Translations under genes and position numbers: made by a program
From: Streptomyces sp. LaPpAH-108
Lineage (GTDB): Bacteria > Actinomycetota > Actinomycetes > Streptomycetales > Streptomycetaceae
Assembly (NCBI RefSeq): GCF_000373625.1
Contig: NZ_KB891988.1
Location: 62,001-126,000, forward strand
Length of the DNA: 64,000 bases
Direction of reading: 5' to 3'
The notes under the pieces: generated by a model
Database searches by the model: none
Seen by the model: only the letters and a program-made list of their open reading frames with translations
Told to the model about the DNA's origin: nothing
Shown here: piece after piece, positions 10,488 to 25,726 of the stretch
Numbering within the stretch: position 1 is the stretch's first letter
How the letters are laid out: every line of letters starts with the position of its first letter

Positions 10488-10544
10488 GGTGCGTGTCGCA
10501 GCGCCGGCGGGTGACGGCCGCCGGCCGAGGGGGCGGCACGGAAT

Positions 10545-10572
10545 GGACCCCCACGTGGCCACGTAGGGGTCC
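10545..10572. repeat. Near-perfect 28-bp palindrome downstream of glmS
   Basis: GGACCCCCACGTGG (10545-10558) is followed immediately by CCACGTAGGGGTCC (10559-10572). It is an inverted repeat with one mismatched pair and no spacer. It could be a second terminator for glmS or a protein site. The rest of the 303-bp gap 10367-10669 shows no gene. Confidence 0.4.
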
Positions 10573-10669
10573 GTTCTCCTCTTTGCGCCTAAACCGGCGC
10601 CGCTCTCGCGGAGGTGGTTGCTCGCCGCGGGGGTTGCTCAATTGTCGCTTCCGCCCGTGCGGGGATTTC

Positions 10670-12487
10670 CTATTCCACCGTGACGGACTTCGCCAGGTTG
10701 CGCGGCTTGTCGATGTCGCGGCCCAGGGCCTTCGCCGTGTGGTAGGCGAGCAGCTGGAGCGGGATGCCCATGAGGATCGGGTCCAGCTCGTCCTCGTTCT
10801 TCGGGACGATGATCGTCCGGTCGGCCTTCTCCTGGTCCTGGTGGGCGACCGCGAGGATCTGACCGCTGCGGGCCTTGATCTCCTCCAGGGCGGCGCGGTT
10901 CTTCTCCAGCAGGTCGTCGTCCGGGACGATCGCGACCGTCGGCAGCGCGGGCTCGATCAGGGCCAGCGGACCGTGCTTCAGCTCGGAGGCGGGGTAGGCC
11001 TCGGCGTGGATGTACGAGACCTCCTTGAGCTTGAGGGAGGCCTCACGCGCCACCGGGTAGCCCCGGACACGGCCGATGAAGAGCATCGAGCGGGCGTCGG
11101 CGAACTGCTCCGCCAGCACCTTGATCTCCTCCTCCTGCTTGAGGATCTCGGTGATCTGCTGGGGCAGCTTGCGCAGGCCCTCGATGATCCGCTTGCCGTC
11201 GCGCACCGACAGGTCGCGGGTGCGGCCCAGGTGCAGGGCGAGCAGGGCGAAGGCGACGGTCATGTTGGTGAAGCACTTGGTGGACACCACGCAGACCTCG
11301 GGCCCGGCGTGCACGTACATGCCGCCGTCGGCCTCGCGGGCGATCGCCGAGCCGACCACGTTGACCACGCCGAGGACGCGGGCGCCCTTGCGCTTCAGCT
11401 CCTGCACGGCGGCCAGCACGTCGTACGTCTCACCGGACTGGGAGACGGCGATGTAGAGGGTGTCGGGGTCCACGACCGCGTTGCGGTAGCGGAACTCGGA
11501 GGCGGGCTCGGCGTCGGCGGGGATGCGGGCCAGCTCCTCGATCATCTGGGCGCCGATCATGCCCGCGTGGTACGAGGTGCCGCAGCCGAGGATCTTCACG
11601 CGGCGGATCTGGCGGGCCTCACGGGCGTCCAGGTTGAGGCCGCCGAGGTGCACGGTGGAGAAGCGGTCGTCGATGCGACCGCGCAGCACGCGGTCCACGG
11701 CGTCGGCCTGCTCGAAGATCTCCTTGTGCATGTAGGTGTCGTGGCCGCCCATGTCGTACGAGGCGGCCTCCCACTCCACGGTGGTGGGCTCGGAGCTGGT
11801 CCGGGTGCCCTCGGTGGTGTAGGTGCGGAAGTCGTCGGCCTTCAGGGTGGCCATCTCGCCGTCGTCCAGGGTGACGATCTGGCGGGTGTGGGCGACCAGG
11901 GCGGCGATGTCCGAGGCGACGAACATCTCCTTCTCGCCGATGCCGAGGACGACCGGGGAGCCGTTGCGGGCCACCACGATGCGGTCGGGGAAGTCGGCGT
12001 GCATGACGGCGATGCCGTAGGTGCCCTCGACGACGCGCAGCGCCTCGCGGACCTTGTCCTCCAGCTTCTCGGCGCTCGAGCGGGCGACCAGATGGGTGAG
12101 GACCTCGGTGTCGGTGTCCGAGAGGAATTCGACGCCGTCCGCCTCCAGCTTGCGGCGCAGGTCGGCGGCGTTGTCGATGATGCCGTTGTGCACGACGGCG
12201 ACCTTGCTGTCGGCCGACATGTGCGGGTGGGCGTTCACGTCGGAGGGGGCGCCGTGGGTGGCCCAGCGGGTGTGGGCGATGCCGGTGGTGCCCTTGAAGC
12301 GCGCCGGGACCTTGGCCTCCAGGTCGCGCACCCGGCCCTTGGCCTTGACCATCTTCAGACCGGCCGACTTGGGGCTGGAGACGACGATGCCCGCCGAGTC
12401 GTAGCCCCGGTACTCCAGGCGCTGCAGGCCCTCGAGGAGGAGGGGAGCGACGTCGCGCTTACCGATGTATCCGACAATTCCGCACAT
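10670..12487 (-). CDS. glmS: Glutamine--fructose-6-phosphate aminotransferase (isomerizing)
   Basis: A 605-residue cytoplasmic enzyme making glucosamine-6-phosphate from fructose-6-phosphate and glutamine, the first step to UDP-GlcNAc and peptidoglycan. The N-terminus MCGIVGYIGKRDVAPLLLEG has the amidotransferase nucleophile Cys2 after Met removal. The domain runs to about residue 220 and includes THPHMSADSKVAVVHNGIID-like Ntn residues (HNGII). Two SIS isomerase domains follow (GCGTSYHAGMIGAQ, AVSQSGETYDVLAAV, ELKHGPLALIEP), and the canonical C-terminus is PRNLAKSVTVE. Length is standard. No glmS ribozyme or Rho-type leader is evident upstream. Streptomyces may carry a second glmS elsewhere. 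Confidence 0.96.
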   Translation of the reverse strand: MCGIVGYIGKRDVAPLLLEGLQRLEYRGYDSAGIVVSSPKSAGLKMVKAKGRVRDLEAKVPARFKGTTGIAHTRWATHGAPSDVNAHPHMSADSKVAVVHNGIIDNAADLRRKLEADGVEFLSDTDTEVLTHLVARSSAEKLEDKVREALRVVEGTYGIAVMHADFPDRIVVARNGSPVVLGIGEKEMFVASDIAALVAHTRQIVTLDDGEMATLKADDFRTYTTEGTRTSSEPTTVEWEAASYDMGGHDTYMHKEIFEQADAVDRVLRGRIDDRFSTVHLGGLNLDAREARQIRRVKILGCGTSYHAGMIGAQMIEELARIPADAEPASEFRYRNAVVDPDTLYIAVSQSGETYDVLAAVQELKRKGARVLGVVNVVGSAIAREADGGMYVHAGPEVCVVSTKCFTNMTVAFALLALHLGRTRDLSVRDGKRIIEGLRKLPQQITEILKQEEEIKVLAEQFADARSMLFIGRVRGYPVAREASLKLKEVSYIHAEAYPASELKHGPLALIEPALPTVAIVPDDDLLEKNRAALEEIKARSGQILAVAHQDQEKADRTIIVPKNEDELDPILMGIPLQLLAYHTAKALGRDIDKPRNLAKSVTVE

Positions 12488-12514
12488 ATGAAGTCTTCCC
12501 TCACCCTGGAGTTC

Positions 12515-12772
12515 TCAGCCGTAGACCATGCGGCGCAGTTGCCTGAGCGTCAGCTCCGGCGGCGCCACGGCCCGGTATTTCAGGTCTGCCTCGATCTGTT
12601 CAAAGATCGCTGTGTTCCGCAGGCCGTCGGCCTGCAGTTCACGGTGGCGGCGACGGACGTACTCCTGGGTCGTCTCGTCGAAGTAGGCCAGCACGTCCTG
12701 GATCACCCGCAGCGCTTCGCCCCTGTTCAGCGGGGTGGAGCGCGTCAGGTGATCGACAAGTTCCTCGTGCAC
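12515..12772 (-). CDS. Small charged hypothetical protein upstream of glmS (85 aa)
   Basis: An 85-residue helical, highly charged protein: VHEELVDHLTRSTPL, ALRVIQDVLAYFDETTQEYV, RRRHRELQADGLRNTAIFEQ, ending LTLRQLRRMVYG. GTG 12772 is chosen because GAGGAT lies eight bases upstream and the frame is not protein-like before it. Its stop is 27 bp before the glmS start, so cotranscription with glmS is likely. I do not know the family; a regulatory or DNA-binding role would be a guess. Confidence 0.6.
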   Translation of the reverse strand: MHEELVDHLTRSTPLNRGEALRVIQDVLAYFDETTQEYVRRRHRELQADGLRNTAIFEQIEADLKYRAVAPPELTLRQLRRMVYG

Positions 12773-12804
12773 CCGGTAGATCCTCGGGCACGATCGCGAC
12801 TTTC

Positions 12805-12832
12805 GCAAGAATCTTGCCCGAAATCGGGCAAG
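12805..12832. promoter_or_regulatory. Overlapping inverted repeats in a divergent promoter region
   Basis: Three alternating arms are visible: GCAAG (12805-12809), CTTGC (12813-12817) and GCAAG (12828-12832). The middle arm can pair with either side. The second pairing extends to a perfect 8-bp stem, CTTGCCCG-AAAT-CGGGCAAG (12813-12832). It lies between the small glmS-linked gene and the divergent phosphatase and may be a regulator site. Confidence 0.4.
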
Positions 12833-12922
12833 CGCCTGTTGGGGGTCCGATGGGGTGCTGTTAGCCGGAAATCCACCCGGCGTCCCGGGCGGCGTCGCCC
12901 GCGCGGGGCACCTTCTGGTGAC

Positions 12923-14524
12923 ATGGACATTCCTCGTATGGGCGTACCCGAGAAGCTGGCCGAGCGCATGAGCATGGCCGAGCAGCACGAATATCTGCGC
13001 TCCAGGTTCTCCCGGCGGACCATGATCAGAGGCGGCGCCGTGACGGTGGGCACCGTCGTGGGCGGCGCGTTCGTCTCCGGCGCCTCGGCCCAGGCGGCCC
13101 CCGCGAGCGCCCCCGCCACCGCCGCCACGATCCCCGCCCACCGCCCCGCCGAGACCGTCGACGGCGCCCTCGTCGCCCCCTTCGGACGCCATCTGGCCTG
13201 GGGCAACGACCCGCGCACCGAGATCACCGTCTCCTGGCAGGTGCCCGTCGCGGTCAAGCGGCCCTTCCTCCGCGTCGGCGCCCACCCCTGGGACCTCTCC
13301 CGCAAGATCGAGGCCGAGGTCCGCACCCTCTACACCCCGGCCGGAGTCGGCGCGAGCGGCGACCACACCCAGTACTACGTCCACGCCAAGCTGACTCACC
13401 TGCGCCCCGGGCAGACCTATTACTACGGCGTCGGCCACCAGGGCTTCGACCCCGCCGCGCCCCATCTGCTCGGCACCCTCGGCACCTTCACCACCGCCCC
13501 CGCCGGGAAGAAGCCGTTCACCTTCACCGCGTTCGGCGACGAGGGCGTCGGCTACCACGGCCTGGCCAACAACGCCCTGATCCTCGGCCAGAACCCCGCC
13601 TTCCACCTGCACGCGGGCGACATCGCCTACGGCGACCCGGCCGGCCAGGGCAAGACCACCGACACCGGCTTCGACTCGCGCACCTGGGACCAGTTCCTGC
13701 ACCAGACCGAGTCCGTCGCCAAACAGATCCCCTGGATGCCCGCCTACGGCAACCACGACATGGAGGCCTGGTACTCGCCCAACGGCTACGGCGGCGAGGA
13801 GGCCCGCTGGACCCTCCCGGACAACGGCCCCGACCGCAAGAACCTCCCCGGCGTCTACTCCTTCGTCTACGGCAACACCGCCGTGATCTCGCTCGACGCC
13901 AACGACATCTCGTACGAGATCCCGGCGAACCTCGGCATCTCCGGCGGCACCCAGACCAAGTGGCTGGAGACCCAGCTGAAGAAGTACCGCGCCGCGAAGG
14001 ACGTGGACTTCATCGTGATCTTCTTCCACCACTGCGCCTACTGCACCTCCACCGCGCACGCCTCCGAGGGCGGGGTACGGCAGGAGTGGGTGCCGCTGTT
14101 CGAGAAGTACACCGTGGACCTGGTCATCAACGGCCACAACCACCAGTACGAGCGCACCGACGTGATCAAGGGCGACAAGGTCGTCAAGAAGCTCCCCATC
14201 GGCGGCACCGCCTACCCGGAGAGCGAGGGCGTCGTCTACGTCACCGCGGGCGCGGCCGGCAAGAGCCTGTACGCCTTCACCGCGCCCGACTCCTACGAGG
14301 GGCACGAGCACGAGGTCGAGTCCGTGGCCTCCTTCGTCAACCTCAAGGACGGCAAGCGCGACGAGGCGGTCACCTGGTCCCGGGTGCGCTACCTCGACTA
14401 CTCCTTCCTGCGCGTGGACGTCACGCCCGCGCCGAAGGGGCACACGGCGAAGCTGACCGTGTCGGGCATCGCGGAGACGGGTGAGCGGATCGACCACTTC
14501 ACGGTGGCGCGCAAGGCCAGGTAG
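12923..14524 (+). CDS. Tat-exported purple-acid-phosphatase-like metallophosphoesterase
   Basis: A 533-residue secreted phosphatase. The N-terminus carries a twin-arginine signal (SRRTMIRGG at residues 30-38) after an unusually long n-region, then a hydrophobic stretch ending ASAQA. An N-terminal fibronectin-like domain of purple acid phosphatases is followed by metal motifs: FGDEG, HAGDIAYGD, YGNHDMEAW, FFHHCAYC and NGHNHQYER. These match the dinuclear metallophosphoesterase fold that hydrolyses phosphate monoesters. It is probably exported folded, with metals loaded. No clear PHO-box repeats are seen upstream. It is divergent from the glmS-linked gene and ends before a strong hairpin shared with desD. 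Confidence 0.9.
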   Translation: MDIPRMGVPEKLAERMSMAEQHEYLRSRFSRRTMIRGGAVTVGTVVGGAFVSGASAQAAPASAPATAATIPAHRPAETVDGALVAPFGRHLAWGNDPRTEITVSWQVPVAVKRPFLRVGAHPWDLSRKIEAEVRTLYTPAGVGASGDHTQYYVHAKLTHLRPGQTYYYGVGHQGFDPAAPHLLGTLGTFTTAPAGKKPFTFTAFGDEGVGYHGLANNALILGQNPAFHLHAGDIAYGDPAGQGKTTDTGFDSRTWDQFLHQTESVAKQIPWMPAYGNHDMEAWYSPNGYGGEEARWTLPDNGPDRKNLPGVYSFVYGNTAVISLDANDISYEIPANLGISGGTQTKWLETQLKKYRAAKDVDFIVIFFHHCAYCTSTAHASEGGVRQEWVPLFEKYTVDLVINGHNHQYERTDVIKGDKVVKKLPIGGTAYPESEGVVYVTAGAAGKSLYAFTAPDSYEGHEHEVESVASFVNLKDGKRDEAVTWSRVRYLDYSFLRVDVTPAPKGHTAKLTVSGIAETGERIDHFTVARKAR

Positions 14525-14624: not shown

Positions 14625-16394
14625 TCAGAACGCCGCGAGCGGGTTCTGCAGGGTGCCGATGAGCTGGAGCGCGCCGGACGGGTCCGCGAGGTCCACCATC
14701 TGCTTGTTGTTGCGCAGCTGGAGCCGGTTCAGGCAGGACAGCGCGAACTCGGGCGCGAACATGTCGTACTGCGCGAACTTCTCCGCCAGCTGCGGGTTCG
14801 CCGCCTGGTACTCCCGGGTGATCTCCGCGACCGTGCCCCAGAACTCGTCCTCGGTGAGGATGCCCTCGGCCGCCAGGTTGGACGCGAGGAAGCGGAAGAA
14901 GCAGTCGAAGACGTCCGTGAAGATCGACAGCAGCTTCGTGTCCTCGGGCACCTCGACCCGGATGCGCCGGACCTCGGGCGGCAGCACCGCGTCCGGGTCC
15001 ATCACGGCGATCTCCTCCGCGATGTCCTTGTACACCGCGCGCCGGACCGCGCCGTCCGCCAGGACCAGGATCACGTTCTCGCCGTGCGGCATGAACACCA
15101 GGTCGTAGGCGTAGAAGCTGTGCAGCAGCGGCACGTAGTACGCGCGCAGGTAGTCGCGCAGCCAGTCGGCGGGTGCCTGCCCGGAGCGCTCGATCAGCGC
15201 GCCAGCGAAGGAGGCGCCGTCCTGGTCGACATGGAGCAGCGAGGCCATGGTCGCCAGCGACTCGCCCTCGGCGAGCCGGGACACCGGGGACTCCCGCCAC
15301 AGCGCGGCCAGCATCTTGCGGTACGGCGAGTAGCGGTCGGTCGCCCGCTCGTACTCCAGGTGCCGGTAGCCGACGGCCGCCTGCTCGCGGATGATCGTCA
15401 GGCCCGTGCCGCTGAGCACCGGGTCGTTCTCGATCAGCTGGGCCAGCCAGTCGTTGATCGCCGGGGTCGCCTCCATGTACGCGGCCGAAAGACCACGCAT
15501 GAAGCCCATGTTGAGGACGGACAGGGCCGTCTTCACATAGTGCTTCTCCGGGTGCGAGGCGTTGAAGAACGTCCGGATGGACTGCTGGGCCAGATACTCG
15601 TCCTCGCCCTCGCCCAGGCACACCAGATGGCGGCGGGCCACCTCGGCGGCGAAGGTCACGCTGAGCTTGTTCCACCACTGCCAGGGGTGGACCGGGATCA
15701 GCAGATAGTCCTCCGGGTCGAGACCCTGCGCGGTGAGCACGCCCCGGAAGCGCTCCAGGACGGTCTCGCCCAGCTCGCGCCGGAAGAACTCCTCGTACTC
15801 GACGCCCGCCCCGGCGGTGAACGCGGCGCGCGAGCGGTGCGCGGCCAGCCAGACCAGTTTCAGCGGGCTCGCGGTCTCCGGCGCGTACGCCAGATACTCG
15901 TGCACACCGAAGCCGAGCCGCCCGTTGTTCGCGACGAAGCACGGGTGGCCCTCGGTCATCCCGGTCTCGATCTCCTGGAACGAGCCGGCCGCCAGCTCCT
16001 TCGCGGTGACGCGGGGCTTGGTGAGCTTGTAGCAGGTGCCGGACAGGGTGGAGGAGATCTCCTCCAGGTAGACCGGCAGGATCTCCTCGCTCAGGCCGAG
16101 CGCTTCCTTGAACTCGATGAAGAAGTCCAGGGCGGCGAGCGGGAGTTCGGAGCCGTCGCGGTGCCGGGTGATCGAGTCTTCGGCGATCTGCCAGTGGTCG
16201 AGGCCCCGGCGTACGGCGGAGAAGCGGTACGCGGTCAGTTTGTCGTCGCTGCGGACGACGTACTGCTCCCCGTCCTCCTCGGGCGTGAGCAGCCGCTCAT
16301 GGGCGAACTCCGCGAGGGCTTTGCGGATCAGCAGGCGGTTGGCCTGGTCCCAGCGCTCGGGGGAGAGATGGGCGACGGAGTCGGCGAGGCTCAT
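14625..16394 (-). CDS. desD: Desferrioxamine synthetase DesD (NIS synthetase, IucA/IucC family)
   Basis: A 589-residue ATP-dependent NRPS-independent siderophore synthetase. It joins and cyclises succinyl- or acyl-hydroxycadaverine units into desferrioxamine E/B. Family motifs include GHPCFVANNGRLGFG near the N-terminal third, LIPVHPWQWWNKL, HYVKTALSVLNMGFMRGLSA and the C-terminal LHSFYAYDLVFMPHGENVIL. Length is typical. It is the last gene of desABCD: its ATG overlaps the desC stop (ATGA, 16391-16394), so translation is coupled. The operon is expected to be repressed by iron through the box at 19661-19685. Confidence 0.96.
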   Translation of the reverse strand: MSLADSVAHLSPERWDQANRLLIRKALAEFAHERLLTPEEDGEQYVVRSDDKLTAYRFSAVRRGLDHWQIAEDSITRHRDGSELPLAALDFFIEFKEALGLSEEILPVYLEEISSTLSGTCYKLTKPRVTAKELAAGSFQEIETGMTEGHPCFVANNGRLGFGVHEYLAYAPETASPLKLVWLAAHRSRAAFTAGAGVEYEEFFRRELGETVLERFRGVLTAQGLDPEDYLLIPVHPWQWWNKLSVTFAAEVARRHLVCLGEGEDEYLAQQSIRTFFNASHPEKHYVKTALSVLNMGFMRGLSAAYMEATPAINDWLAQLIENDPVLSGTGLTIIREQAAVGYRHLEYERATDRYSPYRKMLAALWRESPVSRLAEGESLATMASLLHVDQDGASFAGALIERSGQAPADWLRDYLRAYYVPLLHSFYAYDLVFMPHGENVILVLADGAVRRAVYKDIAEEIAVMDPDAVLPPEVRRIRVEVPEDTKLLSIFTDVFDCFFRFLASNLAAEGILTEDEFWGTVAEITREYQAANPQLAEKFAQYDMFAPEFALSCLNRLQLRNNKQMVDLADPSGALQLIGTLQNPLAAF

Positions 16395-16924
16395 GCGGCC
16401 ACCCCCGTCGCCGCCTCGAACCGCTCCCGCGTGCAGAAGCTCAGCAGGGCGCGCTTCTCCGGCTTCTCTATCTCGCGCTCGGCCTCGAAGCCGACGGCCT
16501 CGTTGAGCACGTGCACGGCCTTGTTGCGCACGTCCGGCTCCACGACCACGCGCCGGGTCGCCGGGTCCGCGAACAGATGGGCCATCACGGCCGTGATCAC
16601 CGACCGGGTGAATCCGTGCACGGGCGTGTCCGTGGGCGGCACCAGGAAGTGCATCCCGACGTCCCCCTCCTGAGGCTCGTACAGCCCGACCAGCTCCCGG
16701 TGGGCCGGGTCGTAGCTCTCCATCAGGAAGACCGGCGCTCCGGACTCGTCCAGACCGAGGAAGGCGTGGTGGTGCGGGTCGGCCGCGATCTCCATGTAGG
16801 CGCGCTCGACGTCCACCAGGCGTGCGTCCTGCATCATCCAGAACGCGGCCTTCGGGTCGGTGACCCAGCCGTGGACGAGCCGCGCGTCCTTCAGGGGGTC
16901 GAGCGGGCGGATCGTGAAGGTCAT
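16391..16924 (-). CDS. desC: Hydroxycadaverine N-acyltransferase DesC
   Basis: A 177-residue acyltransferase of the IucB/GNAT type that acylates N-hydroxycadaverine with succinyl-, acetyl- or other acyl-CoA, making the hydroxamate building block. Motifs are [25 protein letters not shown]-like [25 protein letters not shown] and [20 protein letters not shown], with VVVEPDVRN near the end. It overlaps desB upstream (ATGA at 16921-16924) and desD downstream by four bases, a tightly coupled arrangement. Size matches known DesC. Confidence 0.95.
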
Positions 16925-18195
16925 ACGGCGAACTCCTGGAAGGCGATGGTCTTCTCCACCGGGTAGTACTCCCTGCCGAGCAGGTCGCGGATGATGGAGG
17001 CGTTCCGGTAGGGGCCCATGCCCAGGTCGGGGCTGGTCACGCTGTGGGTGTGGACACCCGCGTTCTGGAGGAAGACGCCCCGGCCCGTGGTGTCGATCGC
17101 GTAGTTGCGGGCGATGTCGAAGTTGCCGTGGGAGTCGTAGCGCAGACGGTCGCGGACCGGCTTCAGGAACTCCGGCTCGCGGTACTGGTAGCCGGTGGCG
17201 AGCACCAGGCCGTCGCTCTCCAGCTCGAAGTCCTTGCCCTGCTCCTCCTGGCGGAAGGCGAGGGTGTAGCTGCCGTCCTCGTAACGGGCGCTGGTGAGGG
17301 CGGAGTTGGTGAGCAGGCGGGTGGGGACCGGGCCGCCGAGGTTCTTCTGGTAGAGCAGGTCGAAGATCTCGTTGATCAGCTCGCCGTCGATGCCCTTGAA
17401 CAGGCCCTTCTGCGCGGTGGCGAGCCGGTAGCGGGTGTCCTCCGGGAGCGCGTGGAAGTAGTCGATGTACTCCGGGGAGGTCATCTCCAGCGTGAGCTTG
17501 GTGTATTCGAGCGGGAAGAAGCGCGGGGAGCGGGTGACCCAGTTGAGCCGGTAGCCGTGGACGTCGATCTCGCTGAGGAGGTCGTAGTAGATCTCCGCCG
17601 CCGACTGGCCGCTGCCGACCAGGGTGATGGAGCGCTTCTTCTGCAGCTCCGCCTTGTGCTGGAGATAGCGGGAGTTGTGCAGGAAGTCGCCGCCGAGGTC
17701 CTGGCACGCCTCGGGGATGTACGGCGGGGTGCCGGTGCCGAGGACCAGATGCCTGGCGCGGTAGGTGTCACCGGCCTGCGTGTGCACGGCGTACACGCCG
17801 TCCTCGTACGTCACTTCGGTGACCGTGGTGCTGAACCGCACGCTGGTCAGCTTGTTGGCCGCCCAGCGGCAGTAGTCGTCGTACTCCACGCGCAGCGGGT
17901 AGAAGTTCTCGCGGATGTAGAACGAGTACAGACGGCCTTTCTCCTTCAGGTAGTTGAGGAAGGAGTACGGCGAGGTCGGGTCGGCCAGGGTGACCAGGTC
18001 CGACATGAACGGCGTCTGGAGGTGGGCGCCTTCGAGGAACATCCCGGCGTGCCACTCGAAGTCGGGCTTCGAGTCGAGGAAGACGCCGTTCAGCTCGTCG
18101 ATGGGCTCGGTCAGACAGGCAAGGCCGAGGTTGAAGGGACCGAGGCCGATCCCCACGAAGTCAAGGACGGGGCTGGCTTCAGGAAGCGCGGTCAA
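16921..18195 (-). CDS. desB: Cadaverine N-monooxygenase DesB
   Basis: A 424-residue flavin-dependent N-hydroxylase of the lysine/ornithine monooxygenase family. It uses FAD, NADPH and O2 to convert cadaverine to N-hydroxycadaverine. The FAD-binding motif [14 protein letters not shown] is near residue 15, the substrate/FAD region reads [20 protein letters not shown], the NADPH motif is [14 protein letters not shown], and the C-terminal [12 protein letters not shown] is the family signature. It overlaps desA upstream by 17 bp and desC downstream by 4 bp. Cytoplasmic. Confidence 0.96.
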
Positions 18196-19621
18196 GGGAC
18201 TCTCCCAGGTACTGCTCGGCGTGGCCGGCGATCAGATCGAGGACGGCGGCGATGTCGGCCGCGGTGGTCTCGGGGTTGAGCAGGGTGAACTTCAGGTAGT
18301 GGCGTCCGCCGACCTTGGTGCCCGCGACGACGGCGTCACCGGAGGCGAACAGGGCCTTGCGGGCGTAGAGGTTGGCGCGGTCGATCTCGGCGGGGTCGGT
18401 GACCCCGGCCGGGATGTAGCGGAAGACGAGGGTGGACAGGGACGGGGCCACGACCACGTCGTAACGCGGGTCGGTGGCAAGGAGCTTCCAGCCCTCCTGG
18501 GCCAGTTCGCAGACCTCGTCGAAGAGTTCGCCGATGCCGTCCGCGCCCATCACGCGCAGCGTCATCCACAGCTTGAGCGCGTCGAAACGGCGCGTGGTCT
18601 GGAGGGACTTGTCGACCTGGTTGGGGATGCGCTCCTGGACCATGCGGCGCGGGTTGAGGTACTCCGCGTGGTAGGTGGCGTGGCGCAGGGTGGCCACGTC
18701 GCGCACCAGGAGGGCGGACGAACTCACCGGCTGGAAGAAGGACTTGTGGTAGTCCACGGTGACCGAGTCGGCGCGCTCGATGCCGTTCAGCTTGTCGCGG
18801 TGCTTGAGCGAGGTGAGCAGGCCGCAGCCGTACGCGGCGTCCACGTGCATCCACACGCCGAACTGCTCGCACAGCTCGGCGATTTCGGGGAGCGGGTCGA
18901 TGGAGCCGAAGTCGGTGGTGCCCGCGGTGGCGACGACGGCCATCGGGACCAGGCCGTCCTGGACGGCGCGCTCCAGCTCGTGGGCGAGTGCGACGGTGTG
19001 CATCCGCTTGTCGTGGTCCACGGGGATGGTCACGACCGCGTCCGGGCCGAGGCCGAGCAGTTTCGCGGACTTCTTCACGCTGAAGTGGCTCACCTCGGAG
19101 GTGAACACCCGCAGTTTGTCCAGGGATTCGGCCTTGGCCTCCTCGCGGGCGAGCAGCAGGGCCTGGAGGTTGGACTGGCTGCCGCCGGAGGTGAAGACCC
19201 CGTCGGCGTTCTCACCGAGGCCGATGCGCTCGGTGGTCCAGTCGATCAGTTTCCGCTCGATGAGCGTGCCGCCTGCCGACTGGTCCCAGGTGTCCAGCGA
19301 GGAGTTGACGGCGGAGAGCACGGCCTCGCCGAGCACCGCCGGTATGACGACCGGGCAGTTGAGGTGGGCGAGGTAGCGGGGGTGGTGGAAGTAGACGGCG
19401 TCGCGGAGGTACAGCTCCTCCAGCTCGTCCAGGACGGCGGCGGTGTCGCCGAGCGGGCGGTCCAGGTCGACGGCGTCGATGCGGGGGGTGAGGTCGTCGA
19501 CGGTGACGCCGGTGAACGGACGTTCGGTGGTGGCCAGTTTGGCAGCCACCCGCTCTACTCCTTCGGTCACGGAGCGGCGGTAGTGCTCCGCGGTGAGGCC
19601 ATTGAGCAGGTGCGAGCGCAT
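18179..19621 (-). CDS. desA: Lysine decarboxylase DesA (PLP-dependent)
   Basis: A 480-residue group II PLP decarboxylase that turns lysine into cadaverine, committing it to desferrioxamine synthesis. Motifs are [20 protein letters not shown] (PLP phosphate binding), WMHVDAAYG (pyridine-stacking Asp region), and [20 protein letters not shown] with the Schiff-base lysine. Length agrees with DesA. It is first in desABCD; the transcript probably starts just upstream, where a 25-bp iron-box palindrome lies 40 bp before the ATG. It resembles aromatic or diaminobutyrate decarboxylases, but the operon context settles the substrate. Confidence 0.95.
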
Positions 19622-19660
19622 GTGGGGGTCCTCCGAGGGGACTGTCCGTGCGGGAACTTC

Positions 19661-19685
19661 AACTTAGGTTAGCCTAACCTAAGTT
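19661..19685. promoter_or_regulatory. Iron box (DmdR1/DtxR-type operator) of desABCD
   Basis: This is a perfect 25-bp palindrome centred on C at 19673. Its core TTAGGTTAGCCTAACCTAA (19664-19682) matches the known DtxR/DmdR1 iron-box consensus. It lies 40 bp upstream of desA, so iron-loaded regulator should block the operon. Confidence 0.92.
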
Positions 19686-19990
19686 AGCTCGGGGGTGATC
19701 ACGGGGGTGCGGTGACGGGGGTCACGTCGGCGTTGCGCTTGGCTTTGGCGGGTGGGGGTGCCGGGGGTGCGCGGGGTGGCCGGGCGCGGGTGCGGACGTC
19801 GCGGTTGCGAGGAGAGGTGACGCGGACACGCGTCGGAGCGGTGGGGGTGGGGGGAGTGGGGGCGCGTCTCAATGGCCCGCGGGTCGCGTGGCCGGGCGGC
19901 TCCGGGGCTGCGTCGATCGGGCCGGACGGATTCGCCACCCCGCGCACGGTGGAGCCGCGTGTCGAAGTGGCTGAGGGAGCGCCGGTCATG

Positions 19991-20056
19991 GCCGCCCTCC
20001 GCGGACCGGACTCCCGCCCACGGTATGCGGCAGGAGTCCGGTCCGCGGAGGGCGGC
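19991..20056. repeat. 24-bp perfect inverted repeat between desE and desA
   Basis: The arms 19991-20014 and 20033-20056 are perfectly complementary over 24 bases with an 18-base loop. It is the longest perfect hairpin in the window. It lies downstream of desE and could stop desE transcription before the desA promoter. Confidence 0.6.
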
Positions 20057-20158
20057 GGTTCTGGGGGTGACCGGAACGGCGGCGGCCCGAGCCCCGACGC
20101 CGCCCGTCCGCGCCGAGGCGAGGAGCAGATGCGAGGTGACTCGGCTGCCGCGCCGCGG

Positions 20159-20215
20159 TCTCCTGAGCCCGGCCCGGCTCTCCGGGTGCTTTCCCGGGCG
20201 GCCGGGTTCAGGAGA
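20159..20215 (-). terminator. Terminator-like compound hairpin after desE
   Basis: A 16-base arm (20159-20174) pairs with 20200-20215, with a single G-T wobble. A smaller CCGGG/CCCGG hairpin lies in the loop. It begins 15 bases after the desE stop. Confidence 0.55.
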
Positions 20216-20230
20216 CGGGGGAGCGGGAGG

Positions 20231-21286
20231 TCAGCTGACCTTCTTGGCCTTCTCGATGGCCTCGGCGAGATTCGTCAGAAGCGGGACGCACTTGTCGTAG
20301 GAGAGGATCGGCTCGGGAGAGCGGGAGATGACCTGGCCGGCCTTGACCGCGGGGAGCTTCTTCCAGGTCGCCTTGGTGATGTCCGCAGGCTGGATCGTCG
20401 AGGCGCGGTCGTCCATGATGATCACGTCGGCGGGGTACTTGTCGACGTTCTCCCAGCTCAGGGTCTCGTACCAGCCACCGGTGGACTTCTTGGCCTTCTC
20501 CGGGGGCTCCACGAGGTTCACGCCGAGGGCCTTGAAGTACTCCAGGTCGATCGAGTAGTGCGAACCGGAGACGTAGAAAACGTCCTGGGCGGCCGAGCCG
20601 GCCAGCACCTTGATCTCGGGGCGGGCCTTCGCGGCCTTGCGCAGCCGCTCGGCGGCGGCCTCGAACCTCGTCTTCGCGTCGACGGCCTTCGGCGCCTTCA
20701 GGTCGGCGCCCAGCGACTTGGCCAGTGCGGCCATGTGCTCCAGGGACACGGGCAGTTGGCGGTTCCAGGCGGCGATGCCCACGCTCGGGGCGATCTTGGC
20801 GATCTTGGCCTTGGACTCCTCCGGCACGTACCAGAGGGTGCCGGAGGAGTCGAACACCGTGGTGATGAGCACGTCCGGCGCCATGGCCGCGTACTTCTCC
20901 ACGTTGAACTGGCCCCAGACATTGCCAAGGACCGTGACCTTGCTGATGTCCATGTCGCCGGCCTGCACGTCGGCCTTGCCGTCCTTGGTCCTGGTCGGGC
21001 CGAAGACGCCCTTGACCTGGATGCCGTAGTCGTAGAGGGCGGCGCCGACGCCGACGAACGCGACGATGTTCGAGGGGACGGCGTCCAGCTTCACGGTCGT
21101 GCCGCGGTCGTCCTTGAACGACCAGGGGCCCGACGCCTTGCCGGACGTCGACCCGGTTGCCGAGCCACCGCTTTTGGCGTCGTCATCCCCACAGGCCGCG
21201 AGCACGGCGCCGAGACCGAGGGCACCACCAGCGGCGAGTATGCCGCGGCGGGTGAGGTGGGTGGCACGGACGTTGGGCATGGGCAT
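20231..21286 (-). CDS. desE: Ferrioxamine-binding lipoprotein DesE
   Basis: A 351-residue periplasmic-type binding lipoprotein for hydroxamate siderophores, feeding an ABC importer. The signal peptide RATHLTRRGILAAGGALGLG has a twin-arginine character and ends in the lipobox LAAC, with the lipidated cysteine at about residue 32. A Gly/Ser/Thr-rich tether follows, then the class III binding fold (PSNIVAFVGVGAALYDYGIQ, MAPDVLITTVF). ATG 21286 gives a normal signal; an in-frame start at 21322 is less likely. It is transcribed separately from desABCD but is controlled by its own iron box, so uptake and synthesis respond together. Confidence 0.93.
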   Translation of the reverse strand: MPMPNVRATHLTRRGILAAGGALGLGAVLAACGDDDAKSGGSATGSTSGKASGPWSFKDDRGTTVKLDAVPSNIVAFVGVGAALYDYGIQVKGVFGPTRTKDGKADVQAGDMDISKVTVLGNVWGQFNVEKYAAMAPDVLITTVFDSSGTLWYVPEESKAKIAKIAPSVGIAAWNRQLPVSLEHMAALAKSLGADLKAPKAVDAKTRFEAAAERLRKAAKARPEIKVLAGSAAQDVFYVSGSHYSIDLEYFKALGVNLVEPPEKAKKSTGGWYETLSWENVDKYPADVIIMDDRASTIQPADITKATWKKLPAVKAGQVISRSPEPILSYDKCVPLLTNLAEAIEKAKKVS

Positions 21287-21329
21287 GCTGCTTTCGAAGG
21301 GGGCGGAGCGCCCGCCGGACAATTCGAAA

Positions 21330-21348
21330 GTAGGTTAGCCTAACCTCA
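21330..21348. promoter_or_regulatory. Iron box of desE
   Basis: AGGTTAGCCTAACCT (21332-21346) is a perfect 15-bp palindrome identical to the core of the desA iron box. It lies about 45 bp upstream of desE. Confidence 0.9.
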
Positions 21349-21489: not shown

Positions 21490-22263
21490 CTACGCGGCCG
21501 TCTTCTGTTCGCGAGCCAGGGCCTTGGCCGCGTCGCGGCGCTTGCCGGACAGTACGTCCACCGGGGCGCCGGCGCCCTTGCCGGGCTGCTTCTCCCAACC
21601 GCGAAGCTTGGCGACCACCTTGGCCAGCAGCGGGCTGCCCGGCTTCACCGCGACGTAGAACAGCGACTCGTCGGGCGTCTTGTCGTCCCCGCCCCAGCGG
21701 ACGACGCCTTCGAGTTCGGCGAGGATGTCGCGGATCACCAGTTGCTGCGGGGTGAAGAAGCCGCCTCTGGCACCGCTCGGGTAGTGCTCCGGACGGATCT
21801 GTACCGCGGTCCCGGAAGCCTGGTTGGCCTCGGACAGCCTGCCGCGCACCGTGCTCGGGCTGCGCCAGCCGACCACATCGCCCCCGCGCAGCTCGTCCAC
21901 CTCGTAGTGGAACCGGCGGATGACGTGAACGAGCACGGTCTCCACGTCGCCGATCCGTACGGCGACGCCCTTGACGGGGGTGCCGGGGACCGGCCGGGTC
22001 CACACGAACCCGCCCTTGTCGGTGGTCAGTTCCATCTCCCAGCCGTTGGGGCTCGGCTTGCCGGACTGGGTGCGCTTGCCACGGGCCAGCGCACGGCGGG
22101 CCGCGTCCCTGAGGTGCTTCGGCTGGGCGTATCGGTTCGCCGCGTGCGCGGGCGAGGCGAGGTACTCGGAGAAGGGCAGCGTGGCCGCTGCCGTGGCGCC
22201 CGCGATCACTGCGGTCCGGGCGAGGAAGGTACGGCGGGAAAGCGTGCGGCGGGAAGAAGTCAT
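21490..22263 (-). CDS. Tat-exported M15-peptidase homologue lacking zinc ligands
   Basis: A 257-residue protein with a twin-arginine signal (SRRTFLA, residues 9-15) and cleavage near SPAHA at about 41. The C-terminal half resembles M15-type D-Ala-D-Ala carboxypeptidases: NQASGTAVQI (147-156), YPSGARGGFFTPQQ, VVRWGGD (187-193), then DESLFYV (198-204). In active members these read HASGTAxDI and (D)xMHFE. Here the zinc histidine is Gln148, the zinc aspartate Gln155 and the second histidine is replaced in LFYV. It is probably a non-catalytic wall-binding domain. It is the last gene of an operon, its ATG overlapping the preceding stop (22260-22263). Confidence 0.7.
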   Translation of the reverse strand: MTSSRRTLSRRTFLARTAVIAGATAAATLPFSEYLASPAHAANRYAQPKHLRDAARRALARGKRTQSGKPSPNGWEMELTTDKGGFVWTRPVPGTPVKGVAVRIGDVETVLVHVIRRFHYEVDELRGGDVVGWRSPSTVRGRLSEANQASGTAVQIRPEHYPSGARGGFFTPQQLVIRDILAELEGVVRWGGDDKTPDESLFYVAVKPGSPLLAKVVAKLRGWEKQPGKGAGAPVDVLSGKRRDAAKALAREQKTAA

Positions 22264-22751
22264 GAACGCCTTGTCTCTCTCTTGAAGTCCCGAGTGGCCC
22301 GGCGCTCGGTTTCCAGCAGGCTGAAACCGCCCAGCGCGACGGCGGCGAGTGCGAGAGCGCCCACCGCGGGGTTGATGTAGCCGGGCACGCCGATCGAATA
22401 GGTGGTACCGCTCTTCACATGGCAGCCGAGGCCGAGGGGGATGTAGGTGGGCCGGTAGGAATCGATCTCCAGGACCCGCGCCGGACCCACCGCCGCCTTG
22501 CAGCCGAGGTCCCGTCCCGTCTCGTCCAGCGTCAGCAGATGCAGGGCACCCCAGGCGTAGAGGCAGGCCGCGCCGGCCCCCGCGAGCGCCGCGAACGAGC
22601 GCAGCTGGACCAGCAGGCCCGCCCGTCTGACGCCGTGGCGGGCCACCGTCGCGAAGCCGTAGACGGCCAGTGCGGCGGCGGCCGACAGGCCGAGAAGAAC
22701 GAGGAGAAGCAGCGCCAAGGGGTTGTGCCCCTCGTACGGGTCCGTGGACAT
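22260..22751 (-). CDS. Membrane protein with an extracytoplasmic cysteine loop (163 aa)
   Basis: A 163-residue protein with three or four hydrophobic segments: ALLLLVLLGLSAAAALAVYG, then SFAALAGAGAACLYAWGALH, and a final VGALALAAVALGGFSLL. Between the second and third lies a polar loop with two cysteines (DLGCKAA and LGLGCHVKSG) and the motif DSYRPTYIPLGLGCHV. I recall similar loops in Streptomyces membrane proteins of unknown role. It lies between the DUF1906 gene (37 bp upstream) and the M15 homologue (overlapping by four bases), so it is almost certainly cotranscribed. Holin-like or anchoring roles are possible but unproved. Confidence 0.7.
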   Translation of the reverse strand: MSTDPYEGHNPLALLLLVLLGLSAAAALAVYGFATVARHGVRRAGLLVQLRSFAALAGAGAACLYAWGALHLLTLDETGRDLGCKAAVGPARVLEIDSYRPTYIPLGLGCHVKSGTTYSIGVPGYINPAVGALALAAVALGGFSLLETERRATRDFKRETRRS

Positions 22752-22788: not shown

Positions 22789-25032
22789 CTACCGCCGGGA
22801 CAGTCCGTTGTACTTCTCGAAGAGCTGGTAGAGCGCCATGCGCTTGTTCGCGTGCGCCTCGGCCTCGTTGCCCCAGCCCTGATAGCGGCGCAGGACCTGG
22901 AAGATCTCGGACTGGGTGTAGTCCAGGCTCATGGTGCGCATGACGCTCTCACCGCTCGGCGGGTTCTGGCCGCCCGCCTTGCCGGACGCGTCCCACAGGT
23001 GGATGAGGGGGACGGTGCGGATCGAGTAGGCGTTGTCCTGGTTGACCTTGTGCCACATGGTCCAGATGTCGGGGTCCTTGGCGGGGTCGAGGATGGTGCC
23101 CTGGACGATGCCGGCCTGGATGCAGTGGTTCCAGGCACGGATGCCCACCTCACCACTGATCTGCGCGATACCGGTGGAGGAGTCGCGCTTGGGGACGATG
23201 CCGTCCGCCCCGCTTCCGGTGTGGTAGAGGGTGACGGCGGCATCGACGCCGAGGTCGACCACGTCGTAGTGGCGCATCTCCCAGTAGGCCGAGGTCTGGA
23301 TCAGCGCCTTGCGCATGTTGTACGCGTTCGACAGCTGGGTGATCAGGCTGTCGTGGGACATGATCGTCTCAAGACACTCGGTGTGTGTGAAGATCCGGGT
23401 GATGTCCGAGTCCGGGAAGCCGATCTGCTGCATGTAGGTGCTGATGTCGGCGTGCAGGATGTCGTAGTACGACGAGAAGTTGAACGCGGTGTCCGGGTCG
23501 CTGTCGAGGTACGACGCGTTGAAGGAACCCTCACCGATGTCGCGCCCCGAGGCGATGTTGTGGTCGACCTCGATGGCACCGTCGCCCGAGCCGAGCACCC
23601 GCGTGACGACCTGGTCGTAGGCCCAGTTGGCCGGTAGCGGATAGCCGTAGTTGCCGGAGAAACCGCTGGACATGTCGGAGACGAAGCTCGCCGTGGCGTG
23701 GCCCGCTTCGGACACCCGGATGCAGACGTTGCGCGGCCCGTAGACACCGACCCGGTAAGGGTTGTTGTACATCGCCAGGGCGTCCTGGACACCCTTGAAG
23801 TAGGGCAGGACGCTGTCGGTCACCTCGTAGTCGTAGGCGTCGAAGTCGACCGCGAAGAAGATCCGGGCACCGTTCTTGAAGCCGTGGCGCTGGGCGGCGG
23901 CGATGGCGGCGAGACCGTCCGCGCTCCCGGAGGGGTAGCTGTAGCCGCTGGCGTCGCGGCCGTAGGTCTGCCAGATCGGGAAGCAGCGCAGCCCGTTCTC
24001 GGCGATGGTCTGGAGCTCGCCGGCCTGGATCTCCTTCTCGTAGGGCTTTCCGCCGGTGGCATTGATCAGATAGCGGCCGATGTACTTGACGCCCTCGGCC
24101 TTGAGGGCCGCCGCGCGGGCGGCGGTGATCTTCGTGACGCCGTCGCAGGCCTCGCCCCTGCGGTTCTGGTCGCCGTACGAGACCAGGAGGGACGCCCAGG
24201 TGGAGAAGTCGCCCCTGCCGGTGACCGGGAGCTTCACGAACGCCTGGAACGCGGCCGTCTCACTGGCGACCGTGCTGTTGAAGAGGGAGGTGAAGGGCGT
24301 CGCCGAACGGCCGTTGAGGATCAGCGCGGCGCTGTACAGCTGCGCCCAGGTGCCCGCGGACCCCTCGGAGAGCGTGTGGTCGGCCAGGCCCGACCTGGTC
24401 CCCGGGCCGAACACGCCGTTGGCGGTGCCGTCGGCCATGCCGAGCTCGTACTGGATGGCGTACAGCATGGACGAGGACACGGTCCGCGAGTGGTGGCCGT
24501 CGCACGGCACGATGAAGAAGTCCTGGCGCCCTATGTAACGGCCGTTCAGCCACTGCTGGATATCACGGATCGTCGAACTGCCGCCGTTCACCACGACATA
24601 GGGGTCCATGTTGAGCAGCGCCTTGAAGACCTTGGGGTAGAGGGCGCCCTCGTCCGGGAACGACGGAAGCACACCCATGTCGATCTTCAGCTTGCGCACC
24701 GAGTCGGCGACGCGGCTGTTGTACGTCCCGTCCATGTCGCCGCCGTCGTAGCCCTTGCAGTAGAGCCCGGCCTGGATGATACGGGCGAAATTGGCCGACG
24801 GGACATTCCCGTTCTTCAGCACGGGATACTTCGACTGCAGGGTGTTGAGAGTCGTCGGTCCGAAGGTGTTGGAGAGCGAGCTGATTCCGAGTTCGAGCTG
24901 GAGGGCGCGGGTGAGCGCGTACATCACGGTCCAGCTCGTCTGGCCGTTCTCCTCCAGCGGCTCTATGCCCAGCATGTTGGGATATGTCGTATTGATGAAG
25001 CGCTGGGCGCGGATTACCATCTCGTCGGCCAT
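22789..25032 (-). CDS. DUF1906 (Rv2525c-like glycoside hydrolase-like) multidomain protein without signal peptide
   Basis: A 747-residue protein. Residues about 1-290 contain repeated peptidoglycan-binding-like modules (FGPTTLNTLQSKYPVL, DGTYNSRVADSVRKLKIDMG, GVFGPGTRSGLADHTLSE). Residues about 295-505 form a DUF1906 TIM-barrel-like domain (KYIGRYLINATGGK, FPIWQTYG, GARIFFAVDFDAYDYEV, WAYDQVV, EVDHNIA). Residues 575-640 contain SAYWEMRHYD and SSTGIAQISGEVG, reminiscent of a lysozyme/transglycosylase. A wall-degrading role is likely, yet no signal peptide or membrane segment is visible at MADEMVIRAQRFINTTYPN. It is first in a three-gene operon. Codon use includes ATA, ACA and AAT more than its neighbours. 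The C-terminal assignment is tentative. Confidence 0.75.
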   Translation of the reverse strand: MADEMVIRAQRFINTTYPNMLGIEPLEENGQTSWTVMYALTRALQLELGISSLSNTFGPTTLNTLQSKYPVLKNGNVPSANFARIIQAGLYCKGYDGGDMDGTYNSRVADSVRKLKIDMGVLPSFPDEGALYPKVFKALLNMDPYVVVNGGSSTIRDIQQWLNGRYIGRQDFFIVPCDGHHSRTVSSSMLYAIQYELGMADGTANGVFGPGTRSGLADHTLSEGSAGTWAQLYSAALILNGRSATPFTSLFNSTVASETAAFQAFVKLPVTGRGDFSTWASLLVSYGDQNRRGEACDGVTKITAARAAALKAEGVKYIGRYLINATGGKPYEKEIQAGELQTIAENGLRCFPIWQTYGRDASGYSYPSGSADGLAAIAAAQRHGFKNGARIFFAVDFDAYDYEVTDSVLPYFKGVQDALAMYNNPYRVGVYGPRNVCIRVSEAGHATASFVSDMSSGFSGNYGYPLPANWAYDQVVTRVLGSGDGAIEVDHNIASGRDIGEGSFNASYLDSDPDTAFNFSSYYDILHADISTYMQQIGFPDSDITRIFTHTECLETIMSHDSLITQLSNAYNMRKALIQTSAYWEMRHYDVVDLGVDAAVTLYHTGSGADGIVPKRDSSTGIAQISGEVGIRAWNHCIQAGIVQGTILDPAKDPDIWTMWHKVNQDNAYSIRTVPLIHLWDASGKAGGQNPPSGESVMRTMSLDYTQSEIFQVLRRYQGWGNEAEAHANKRMALYQLFEKYNGLSRR

Positions 25033-25273: not shown

Positions 25274-25726
25274 ATGCGAGCCTTCAGCGCAGCCCTGACC
25301 GCATCGGTTGCCGCCGGAATGCTGGTTTTCACGGGAAATCCCGCGCACGCCGAGGACCAGCTGGACCTGAAGAACTGGATGCTGGCCTGTGAGTCGGGAA
25401 ACAACTTCAAGTTCGAGCTGCATTACAACTCCGACAACAAGGGTGCCTGGCGTGACTTCGGCTACGCCGTCGCCAACTTCGACTCCGTGTACAGCGGTCA
25501 GGGATACAAGCCCCTCGTGTTCTGCGACAACGGTGCCGGCGGGTTGCAGAAGGTGAAGAACAACGCCGCGTCGGCGCACAACAGACACACGTCGTACGGC
25601 GCGTGCGTGTACTACAACAGCTGGTTCAACGGGGCGAAGGACGCGCTGCAGCCCGCGGTTCCCGCCCCGGTGAGCCGGAACCTGGTGAACACCTACAACC
25701 AGAACGCCTCCTTCCAGTGGTGCTGA
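25274..25726 (+). CDS. Small secreted protein with four cysteines
   Basis: A 150-residue protein with a clear Sec signal (MRAFSAALTASVAAGMLVFT, cleavage after NPAHA). The mature ~122 residues contain four cysteines (MLACES, LVFCDNG, YGACVYY, FQWC), probably two disulfides, and many Asn, Tyr and Trp residues, giving a lower GC than neighbours. GAGGAG at 25261-25266 precedes ATG 25274. It is divergent from the DUF1906 operon, sharing a 241-bp promoter region. I do not recognise the family. A wall-associated binding, inhibitor or antimicrobial role is conceivable, without direct support. Confidence 0.75.
   Translation: MRAFSAALTASVAAGMLVFTGNPAHAEDQLDLKNWMLACESGNNFKFELHYNSDNKGAWRDFGYAVANFDSVYSGQGYKPLVFCDNGAGGLQKVKNNAASAHNRHTSYGACVYYNSWFNGAKDALQPAVPAPVSRNLVNTYNQNASFQWC

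Follow-up and report, generated by a model that had tools for sequence, protein, structure and literature searches.

The operon and the M15 domain

The locus lies on the minus strand of a 64,000-nucleotide stretch of the Streptomyces sp. LaPpAH-108 genome, the whole of which we refer to as the window. It comprises three genes arranged head to tail, in the order effector (747 aa), small membrane protein (163 aa) and a predicted exported protein of 257 aa, the pseudo-M15 (Table 1). The ATG of the last overlaps the stop of the small membrane gene by 4 bases. Inspected by eye together with its relatives, the small membrane protein fits the pattern termed 3TM-CCDN. The N-terminus of the pseudo-M15 displays the Tat substrate pattern (RRxFL, a hydrophobic stretch and AxA), and is recognized by the NCBIfam model TIGR01409 with 22.8 bits against a cut-off of 16.7; its export is predicted from these features.

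Table 1. Features of the three-gene operon in the window
Feature	Positions	Strand	Description and basis
Effector	22789..25032	-	Modular wall hydrolase, leaderless, 747 aa; begins at the first in-frame start past the upstream stop
PG_binding_1 repeat of the effector	24187..24315	-	Residues 240-282; PF01471
Rv2525c-like glycoside-hydrolase-like domain of the effector	23554..24108	-	Residues 309-493; PF08924, E 3.9e-51
C-terminal part of the effector (tail 0)	22789..23520	-	Predicted lysozyme-superfamily fold, nearest Tse3; no Pfam match
Small membrane protein	22260..22751	-	163 aa; three hydrophobic segments, with two Cys, an Asp and an Asn between them (by eye)
Pseudo-M15	21490..22263	-	257 aa, ATG start; Tat signal, phage-type M15 domain and C-terminal helix
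Predicted Tat signal peptide	22141..22263	-	Residues 1-41, SRRTFLA ... AHA; TIGR01409 over residues 8-41
M15 domain	21634..22053	-	About residues 71-210; PHROG, alignment and predicted fold
Gln148, replacing a zinc ligand (His)	21820..21822	-	Alignment with viral M15
Gln155, replacing a zinc ligand (Asp)	21799..21801	-	Alignment with viral M15
Asp198, kept at the catalytic-acid position	21670..21672	-	Alignment; Lys in 35/42 tail-1 rows
Leu201, replacing the third zinc ligand (His)	21661..21663	-	Alignment with viral M15

Directly downstream (14625-21322) lie a siderophore cluster, which codes for an IucA/IucC protein, a lysine/ornithine N-hydroxylase and a PLP decarboxylase and which we take to be of the desferrioxamine type, and a gene for a periplasmic binding protein. 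An iron-box pattern is seen in two exact copies at 19666-19680 and 21332-21346. In two other loci (L033 and L036) the operon is followed by a relative of this binding-protein gene, and in a third (L050) such a relative lies beside it on the other strand. Elsewhere in the window, the end of a long frame at 10493-14524 (+) resembles, by eye, another Tat-exported protein, a metallophosphatase, and a small protein with a hydrophobic N-terminus is encoded divergently from the effector gene at 25274-25726 (+); the latter has no Pfam or PHROG match and NCBIfam matches that are weak and below the cut-offs.

The affinity of the pseudo-M15 emerges from profile searches. PHROG 1512 (endolysin) matches its residues 70-231 with E 3.9e-16 and recovers all 31 members of our family alignment (A1). 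Pfam gives no match to the window protein even at E 10, and PF13539 is not reached; this model is found at E up to 1 in seven of the 31 A1 members, and its cut-off is passed by two relatives with an intact site (L125 and L050). Compared with PDB sequences, the family profile retrieves ChiX (E 0.0036), and once viral rows are added it retrieves ChiX and Ply500 (E 0.00046 and 0.0037, respectively). Among phages, tblastn recovered 196 records, mainly the M15 domains of lysin A from Mycobacterium and Gordonia phages, all with less than 60% identity (best E 3e-9 among the 60 matches listed). A viral scan with the single protein yielded no relative and one with the profile yielded 38, of which 30 entered a further alignment (A3) and 25 the tree.

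The AlphaFold2 model of the pseudo-M15 has a mean pLDDT of 81, being low in the signal region and near or above 90 over most of the domain. Foldseek placed ChiX, LysECD7 and the RB49 peptidase at the top with weak scores (E 0.1-0.2), and by itself returned nothing at E 0.001 or better for this model or that of the effector tail. In a second structural comparison M15/LAS proteins occupy every one of the top 32 rows, with Z values running from 5.9 (rmsd 3.2, 104 aligned residues) to 3.5 at row 32, and the first unrelated row has a Z of 3.1. These values, obtained with a predicted model, are modest and the weight rests on the consistency of the rows. The comparison with M15 structures, a check which the initial annotation had proposed, agrees with its family assignment. 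Profiles and predicted fold alike place the pseudo-M15 with the M15C L-Ala-D-Glu endopeptidases, and confirm beyond chance resemblance that it contains a phage-type M15 domain. With the enzymes of this group (Ply500, EndoT5/RB49, ChiX and the LysA M15 domains of Gordonia and Mycobacterium phages) it shares the profile, the predicted fold, the order of motifs and the position of the catalytic Asp. It differs from them in lacking all three zinc ligands and in bearing a Tat signal; further, unlike phage LysA, it is encoded apart from a lysin, as is also the case in some Gordonia phages. The structural matches of the window model also include the Hedgehog signaling domains, which belong to an unrelated pathway and exemplify an M15/LAS fold serving a job other than wall cutting, albeit with the zinc retained.

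Loss of the metal site across the family

We mapped the active site by aligning the family with viral M15 endolysins, whose majority sequence reads SNHASGTAVDxNA...RWGGDY...PDEMHFEI. The H-x6-D ... D-x-x-H of the enzymes aligns with Q148-x6-Q155 ... D198-x-x-L201 of the window protein. In the viral homologues (n=25) the first position is His and the second Asp in all 25, and the third is His in all 22 that reach it. The spacing in the window protein fits the site of EndoT5, given as H66, D73 and H133 with the catalytic D130 (PMC10487532), and agrees with that of ChiX, given as H68/D75/D120/H123 (PMC5778951). The window protein hence lacks the His-x6-Asp ... His triad, with Gln148 taking the place of the first His, Gln155 that of the Asp seven residues further and Leu201 that of the second His, and retains an Asp (Asp198) three residues before the last of these positions. 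The replacement of every zinc ligand, as claimed from the window sequence at the outset, therefore holds. The third ligand had been assigned to an LFYV segment; the place is right and the exact residue is Leu201. Phe202 was considered for this position and rejected, as the profile alignment pairs it with the Phe that follows the His of the enzymes. The retention of the catalytic acid, Asp198, had gone unremarked.

To place these substitutions in the family, relatives were collected from a contig scan, plasmid records and whole-genome searches. The 14 loci of the contig scan come from 13 Streptomyces and one Actinomycetales MAG. A relative is present in 34 of 150 Streptomyces genomes at E 1e-3, and a profile search at E 1e-6 finds one in 79 of 394 genomes sampled from the family and 11 of 394 sampled from the class. 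A census of the 142 distinct domains of at least 100 aa (21 fragments below 100 aa were left out) shows that 77 lack every one of the three ligands, while 41 retain one, 19 two and five the full set. Asp at position 155 occurs exclusively in the five domains with a full triad, being absent from every incomplete one. The residues found instead are mostly Gln, Leu and Tyr at 148, and Ala, Arg, Gln and Val at 155. We take this as conservation of the dead state.

Two of the five complete domains, L116 and L117, belong to ordinary M15 peptidases that lack a Tat-like signal and have no effector within reach. The other three (L050, L114 and L125) group with the dead family: all three have a Tat-like signal, and in L050 and L114 the effector lies upstream. 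Homologues with restored ligands, which the initial annotation had regarded as speaking against its reading, do accordingly occur. These three cluster together. In a quick tree computed without the ligand columns they fall within the window's class, but an alternative tree that separates them from every dead row has a likelihood at least as high. Holding the 110 dead rows as one clade raises the likelihood by 10.4 log units over the quick tree (AU p 0.64). We therefore do not adopt a scenario of many independent losses of the triad, for which the quick tree gives six irreversible events, or three with the weak branches collapsed. As the single-clade tree has the higher likelihood, one ancestral loss suffices, most simply of Asp155, and the data are compatible with it. 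If L050, L114 and L125 branch first, the operon would predate the loss of activity. Judged from its residues, the window protein itself is a dead enzyme under either placement.

Could the protein have stayed catalytic by using a different metal or mechanism? In favor of this, Asp198 persists in the window protein and across 68 of the 142 domains, including all five complete ones, and the fold is predicted to be intact. On the other hand, the 77 domains devoid of any zinc ligand, the nature of the residues at 148 and 155, and the Lys that takes the place of the acid in 45 of the 142 domains all argue against catalysis, as does ChiX, in which the loss of the acid by itself is described as abolishing activity (PMC5778951). 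We regard retained catalysis as very improbable.

The changes are focused on the site. Of the 32 columns in which the viral enzymes are 90% or more conserved, seven (148, 155, 157, 158, 200, 201 and 203) have a different most frequent residue in the window's class, and each of these coincides with a ligand position or lies beside one in the sequence. In line with the initial claim that the rest of the fold motif is kept, the dead rows retain NGW, SGTA and WGGD; in 106 of them, new near-invariant residues have appeared (R117, Y120, P158, Y161, D179 and P208). The dN/dS of the pseudo-M15 is 0.22-0.31 over the six pairs formed by the window protein and three close relatives, and that of the effector partner in these relatives is 0.16-0.26; the set holds four rather than five sequences, since L034, with a partner core below 400 aa, was dropped. 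These values support purifying selection acting on the apparently dead protein. A relic drifting without function could account for the few broken copies (L045, G294 and L182, the first of which is under 120 aa and was left out of the pairing and the tree), but is scarcely credible in the face of these dN/dS values and new near-invariant residues.

The effector partner and the distribution of export signals

The effector, whole or in part, is encoded upstream on the same strand in 105 of the 113 loci long enough to tell. The eight exceptions are the two ordinary M15 peptidases (L116 and L117), two loci with remnants of the partner tail seen by eye (L154 and L163), one broken copy (L182), and L125, L143 and L158. 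Of the 394 genomes sampled from the class, 12 have the effector and nine the dead M15 family, leaving aside the two with an ordinary M15 peptidase, and all nine are among the 12; in one of these genomes both genes are fragmentary (G294), in another they are fused (G530), and the effector is found without the M15 family in three (G404, G480 and G496). We further compared protein distances over 100 of the 108 pairs that are distinct by M15 sequence, omitting eight with a partner core below 400 aa (L034 among them). The distances of pseudo-M15 and effector correlate with a Mantel r of 0.79, against a maximum of 0.16 in 999 permutations, and within the two tail classes r is 0.61 and 0.80. Across 15 within-genome pairs, eight of which cross classes, the distance r is 0.74.

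The effector is modular: residues 1-505 are common, and are followed by tail 0 (the kind in the window), by a second family (tail 1) or by no tail. The 108 distinct pairs divide into 59 with tail 0, 42 with tail 1 and seven tailless ones (the count of 125 effector ORFs includes places fetched twice). By eye, six of the seven tailless forms share an N-terminal extension, and Pfam recognized an Amidase_2 domain in one of the two tailless forms examined. The residues of the dead site differ between these designs: Leu201 is found in 50 of the 59 tail-0 pairs; the 42 tail-1 pairs have His201 in 37, Ala155 in 33 and Lys198 in 35; and six of the seven tailless pairs read H-A-H-K. We rejected the design as an independent correlate of these states, since both follow the tree (three changes for tail 0 and six for tail 1).

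Folded alone from 12 rows, the window's tail 0 gave a model with pLDDT 82. Its first structural match is Tse3 (Z 11.3, rmsd 4.4, 184 aligned residues), a score that helical models can reach through a common arrangement, and the matches listed are lysozyme-like wall and chitin hydrolases throughout. TelC is absent from those matches and lysozyme-superfamily folds rank first; the fold search gives no support for a TelC domain, although the tail may yet be one. Tail 1 has no match among PDB sequences up to E 1.

The small membrane gene was likewise rejected as an immunity gene specific to one tail, as a single loose cluster accompanies both tails (27 and 28 cases). The script found no middle gene of at least 70 aa in 31 of 111 pairs; all these counts are rough, because it also took some out-of-frame ORFs.

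The operon fits a kind recently reported from Actinomycetota in the Lipocone study (eLife 2025), where the gene for an Rv2525c/PGBD/TelC protein stands together with those for a 3-TM protein and a "secreted VanY superfamily peptidase"; the authors propose that these are conflict systems (PMC12419801). The window likewise has the PGBD and Rv2525c barrel (PF01471 and PF08924), a 3-TM protein with two Cys, an Asp and an Asn (by eye), and a predicted secreted M15-superfamily protein as third gene. It may differ in the C-terminal part of the first protein, which is TelC in the published operons and for which our model ranks lysozyme and Tse3 folds first.

The export signals are divided unequally between the partners. 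Among the 108 pairs a Tat-like signal was detected on the M15 protein by script in 102 and by eye in the other six; a looser script finds it in 109 of the 113 loci. For the effectors we applied our own hydrophobicity criterion to the 99 partners with a visible N-terminus. In 96 the conserved N-terminus (MADEMVxxAQxFIN...) carries a start codon, and 41 have no in-frame start far enough upstream to accommodate a signal. An upstream start with a hydrophobic stretch was seen in just two of the remaining 58, leaving 97 of the 99 readable effectors without a signal. The sequence evidence thus supports the initial picture of an M15 peptidase that is dead yet conserved and carries a Tat signal within a lysin-like operon, with export as a prediction.

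The absence of a leader extends to effectors that occur without the M15 protein, in Bacillota and some other Actinomycetota: all eight with visible N-termini, of 11 inspected by eye, are leaderless. Since these include effectors on Bacillota plasmids, another exit route must exist, and escort by the M15 protein cannot by itself account for the missing signal. Effector matches in the plasmid collection amount to 539 records, with 384 from Enterococcus and 70 from Lactiplantibacillus; the two Bacillota plasmid loci inspected (L254 and L257) showed no M15 partner.

Fused forms also occur. In a genome of another family (L115, 5563-6504, minus strand) the N-terminal module of the effector is fused to a dead M15 domain, with no signal peptide. 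This signal-less fusion speaks for a joint role of the two partners and against export as the sole role. The gene after the fusion encodes a protein with a hydrophobic N-terminus. In L046 (4771-6294, plus strand) a truncated effector is joined in frame to the last part of the pseudo-M15, apparently by internal deletion.

Possible roles of the pseudoenzyme

We infer that the dead protein acts by binding. The binding or regulatory function suggested from the window sequence is a reasonable proposal, and can be narrowed by two observations: a modular effector without a leader is the partner, and one and the same dead protein family accompanies three effector designs. As it goes with different effector parts, its contact is most likely with the shared effector core or the wall and not with the toxin part.

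We tentatively favor the view that the pseudo-M15, a former phage-lysin M15 domain without its zinc site, binds the leaderless effector, with its Tat signal escorting the pair out of the cell. The pseudo-M15 would fold in the cytoplasm and bind the conserved front part of the effector, its Tat signal would carry the pair across the membrane as in "hitchhiker" export, and the effector would thereby be active only outside the cell; the emptied M15 cleft may still hold stem peptides of peptidoglycan. Such export would be the simplest joint reading of a Tat signal on the M15 protein and none on the effector. The main evidence against it is that effectors lacking an M15 partner are leaderless too, to which may be added the want of a Tat signal on the L115 fusion protein. 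Moreover, Tat use is common in Streptomyces, and co-inheritance is equally expected from mere linkage or from an inhibitor. The precedents for hitchhiking include HybO/HybC and PaoABC (PaoA/PaoBC) of E. coli, with MelC1/tyrosinase of Streptomyces cited among them (PMC4273604). Like these, the window pair has a signal on one partner and none on the linked other; unlike HybO/HybC, PaoA/PaoBC and MelC1, its escort is a proposal from sequence and the partner is a wall hydrolase.

Two close rivals of the escort account deserve consideration, neither of which we would call probable. In the first, the effector stays in the cytoplasm until lysis or is delivered otherwise, and the Tat-exported dead M15 neutralizes it or shields the stem peptides, acting as an inhibitor or immunity protein. 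Tsi3 plays such a role for the leaderless effector Tse3. The layout of a leaderless effector beside an exported partner is that of Tse3/Tsi3, and the predicted fold of the window tail is closest to Tse3; the tight gene linkage agrees with this reading, as do the differing residue states of the dead M15 between effector classes, although those classes also go with the tree. A contrary point is that immunity usually matches the toxin part, whereas here one dead M15 family goes with different effector parts, and an inhibitor would need to act on the shared core. M15 is, to our knowledge, not a known immunity fold.

In the second, to which we assign a similarly low probability, the pseudo-M15 is a wall-binding co-subunit with no part in export, whose dead cleft grips the L-Ala-D-Glu region of the stem peptide and anchors the effector or marks its sites. 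This would agree with the conservation of the motifs around the site while the metal residues were lost, and a fusion without an export signal, as in L115, is what a targeting module is expected to show. However, the effector already has peptidoglycan-binding repeats, and the changes at 157, 158, 200 and 203 imply that the substrate may no longer fit.

In the parts of the Lipocone study available to us, the third gene is called a peptidase, and the loss of its zinc site, Tat ("twin-arginine" occurs 0 times) and the leaderless partner go unmentioned (PMC12419801). As far as our searches go, the systematic inactivation of the third gene, the division of signals, the fusion and the lysozyme/Tse3-like tail are new. 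The published label "VanY superfamily peptidase" is accordingly to be qualified, as most of the loci collected lack a complete zinc site. More generally, dead bacterial M15/LAS proteins seem to be little described; the part of the literature that we searched yielded no description of one.

Were the escort reading correct, it would provide Streptomyces with a route for exporting large folded wall hydrolases. A broader version, which we regard as possible but rather doubtful, is that the dead M15 is a general Tat-borne escort of Streptomyces, with one adaptor, one docking core and exchangeable effector parts, these being the lysozyme-like tail, the second tail family or an N-terminal amidase. 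If so, it would represent a form of toxin export that sends folded effectors through Tat with a pseudoenzyme as their carrier.
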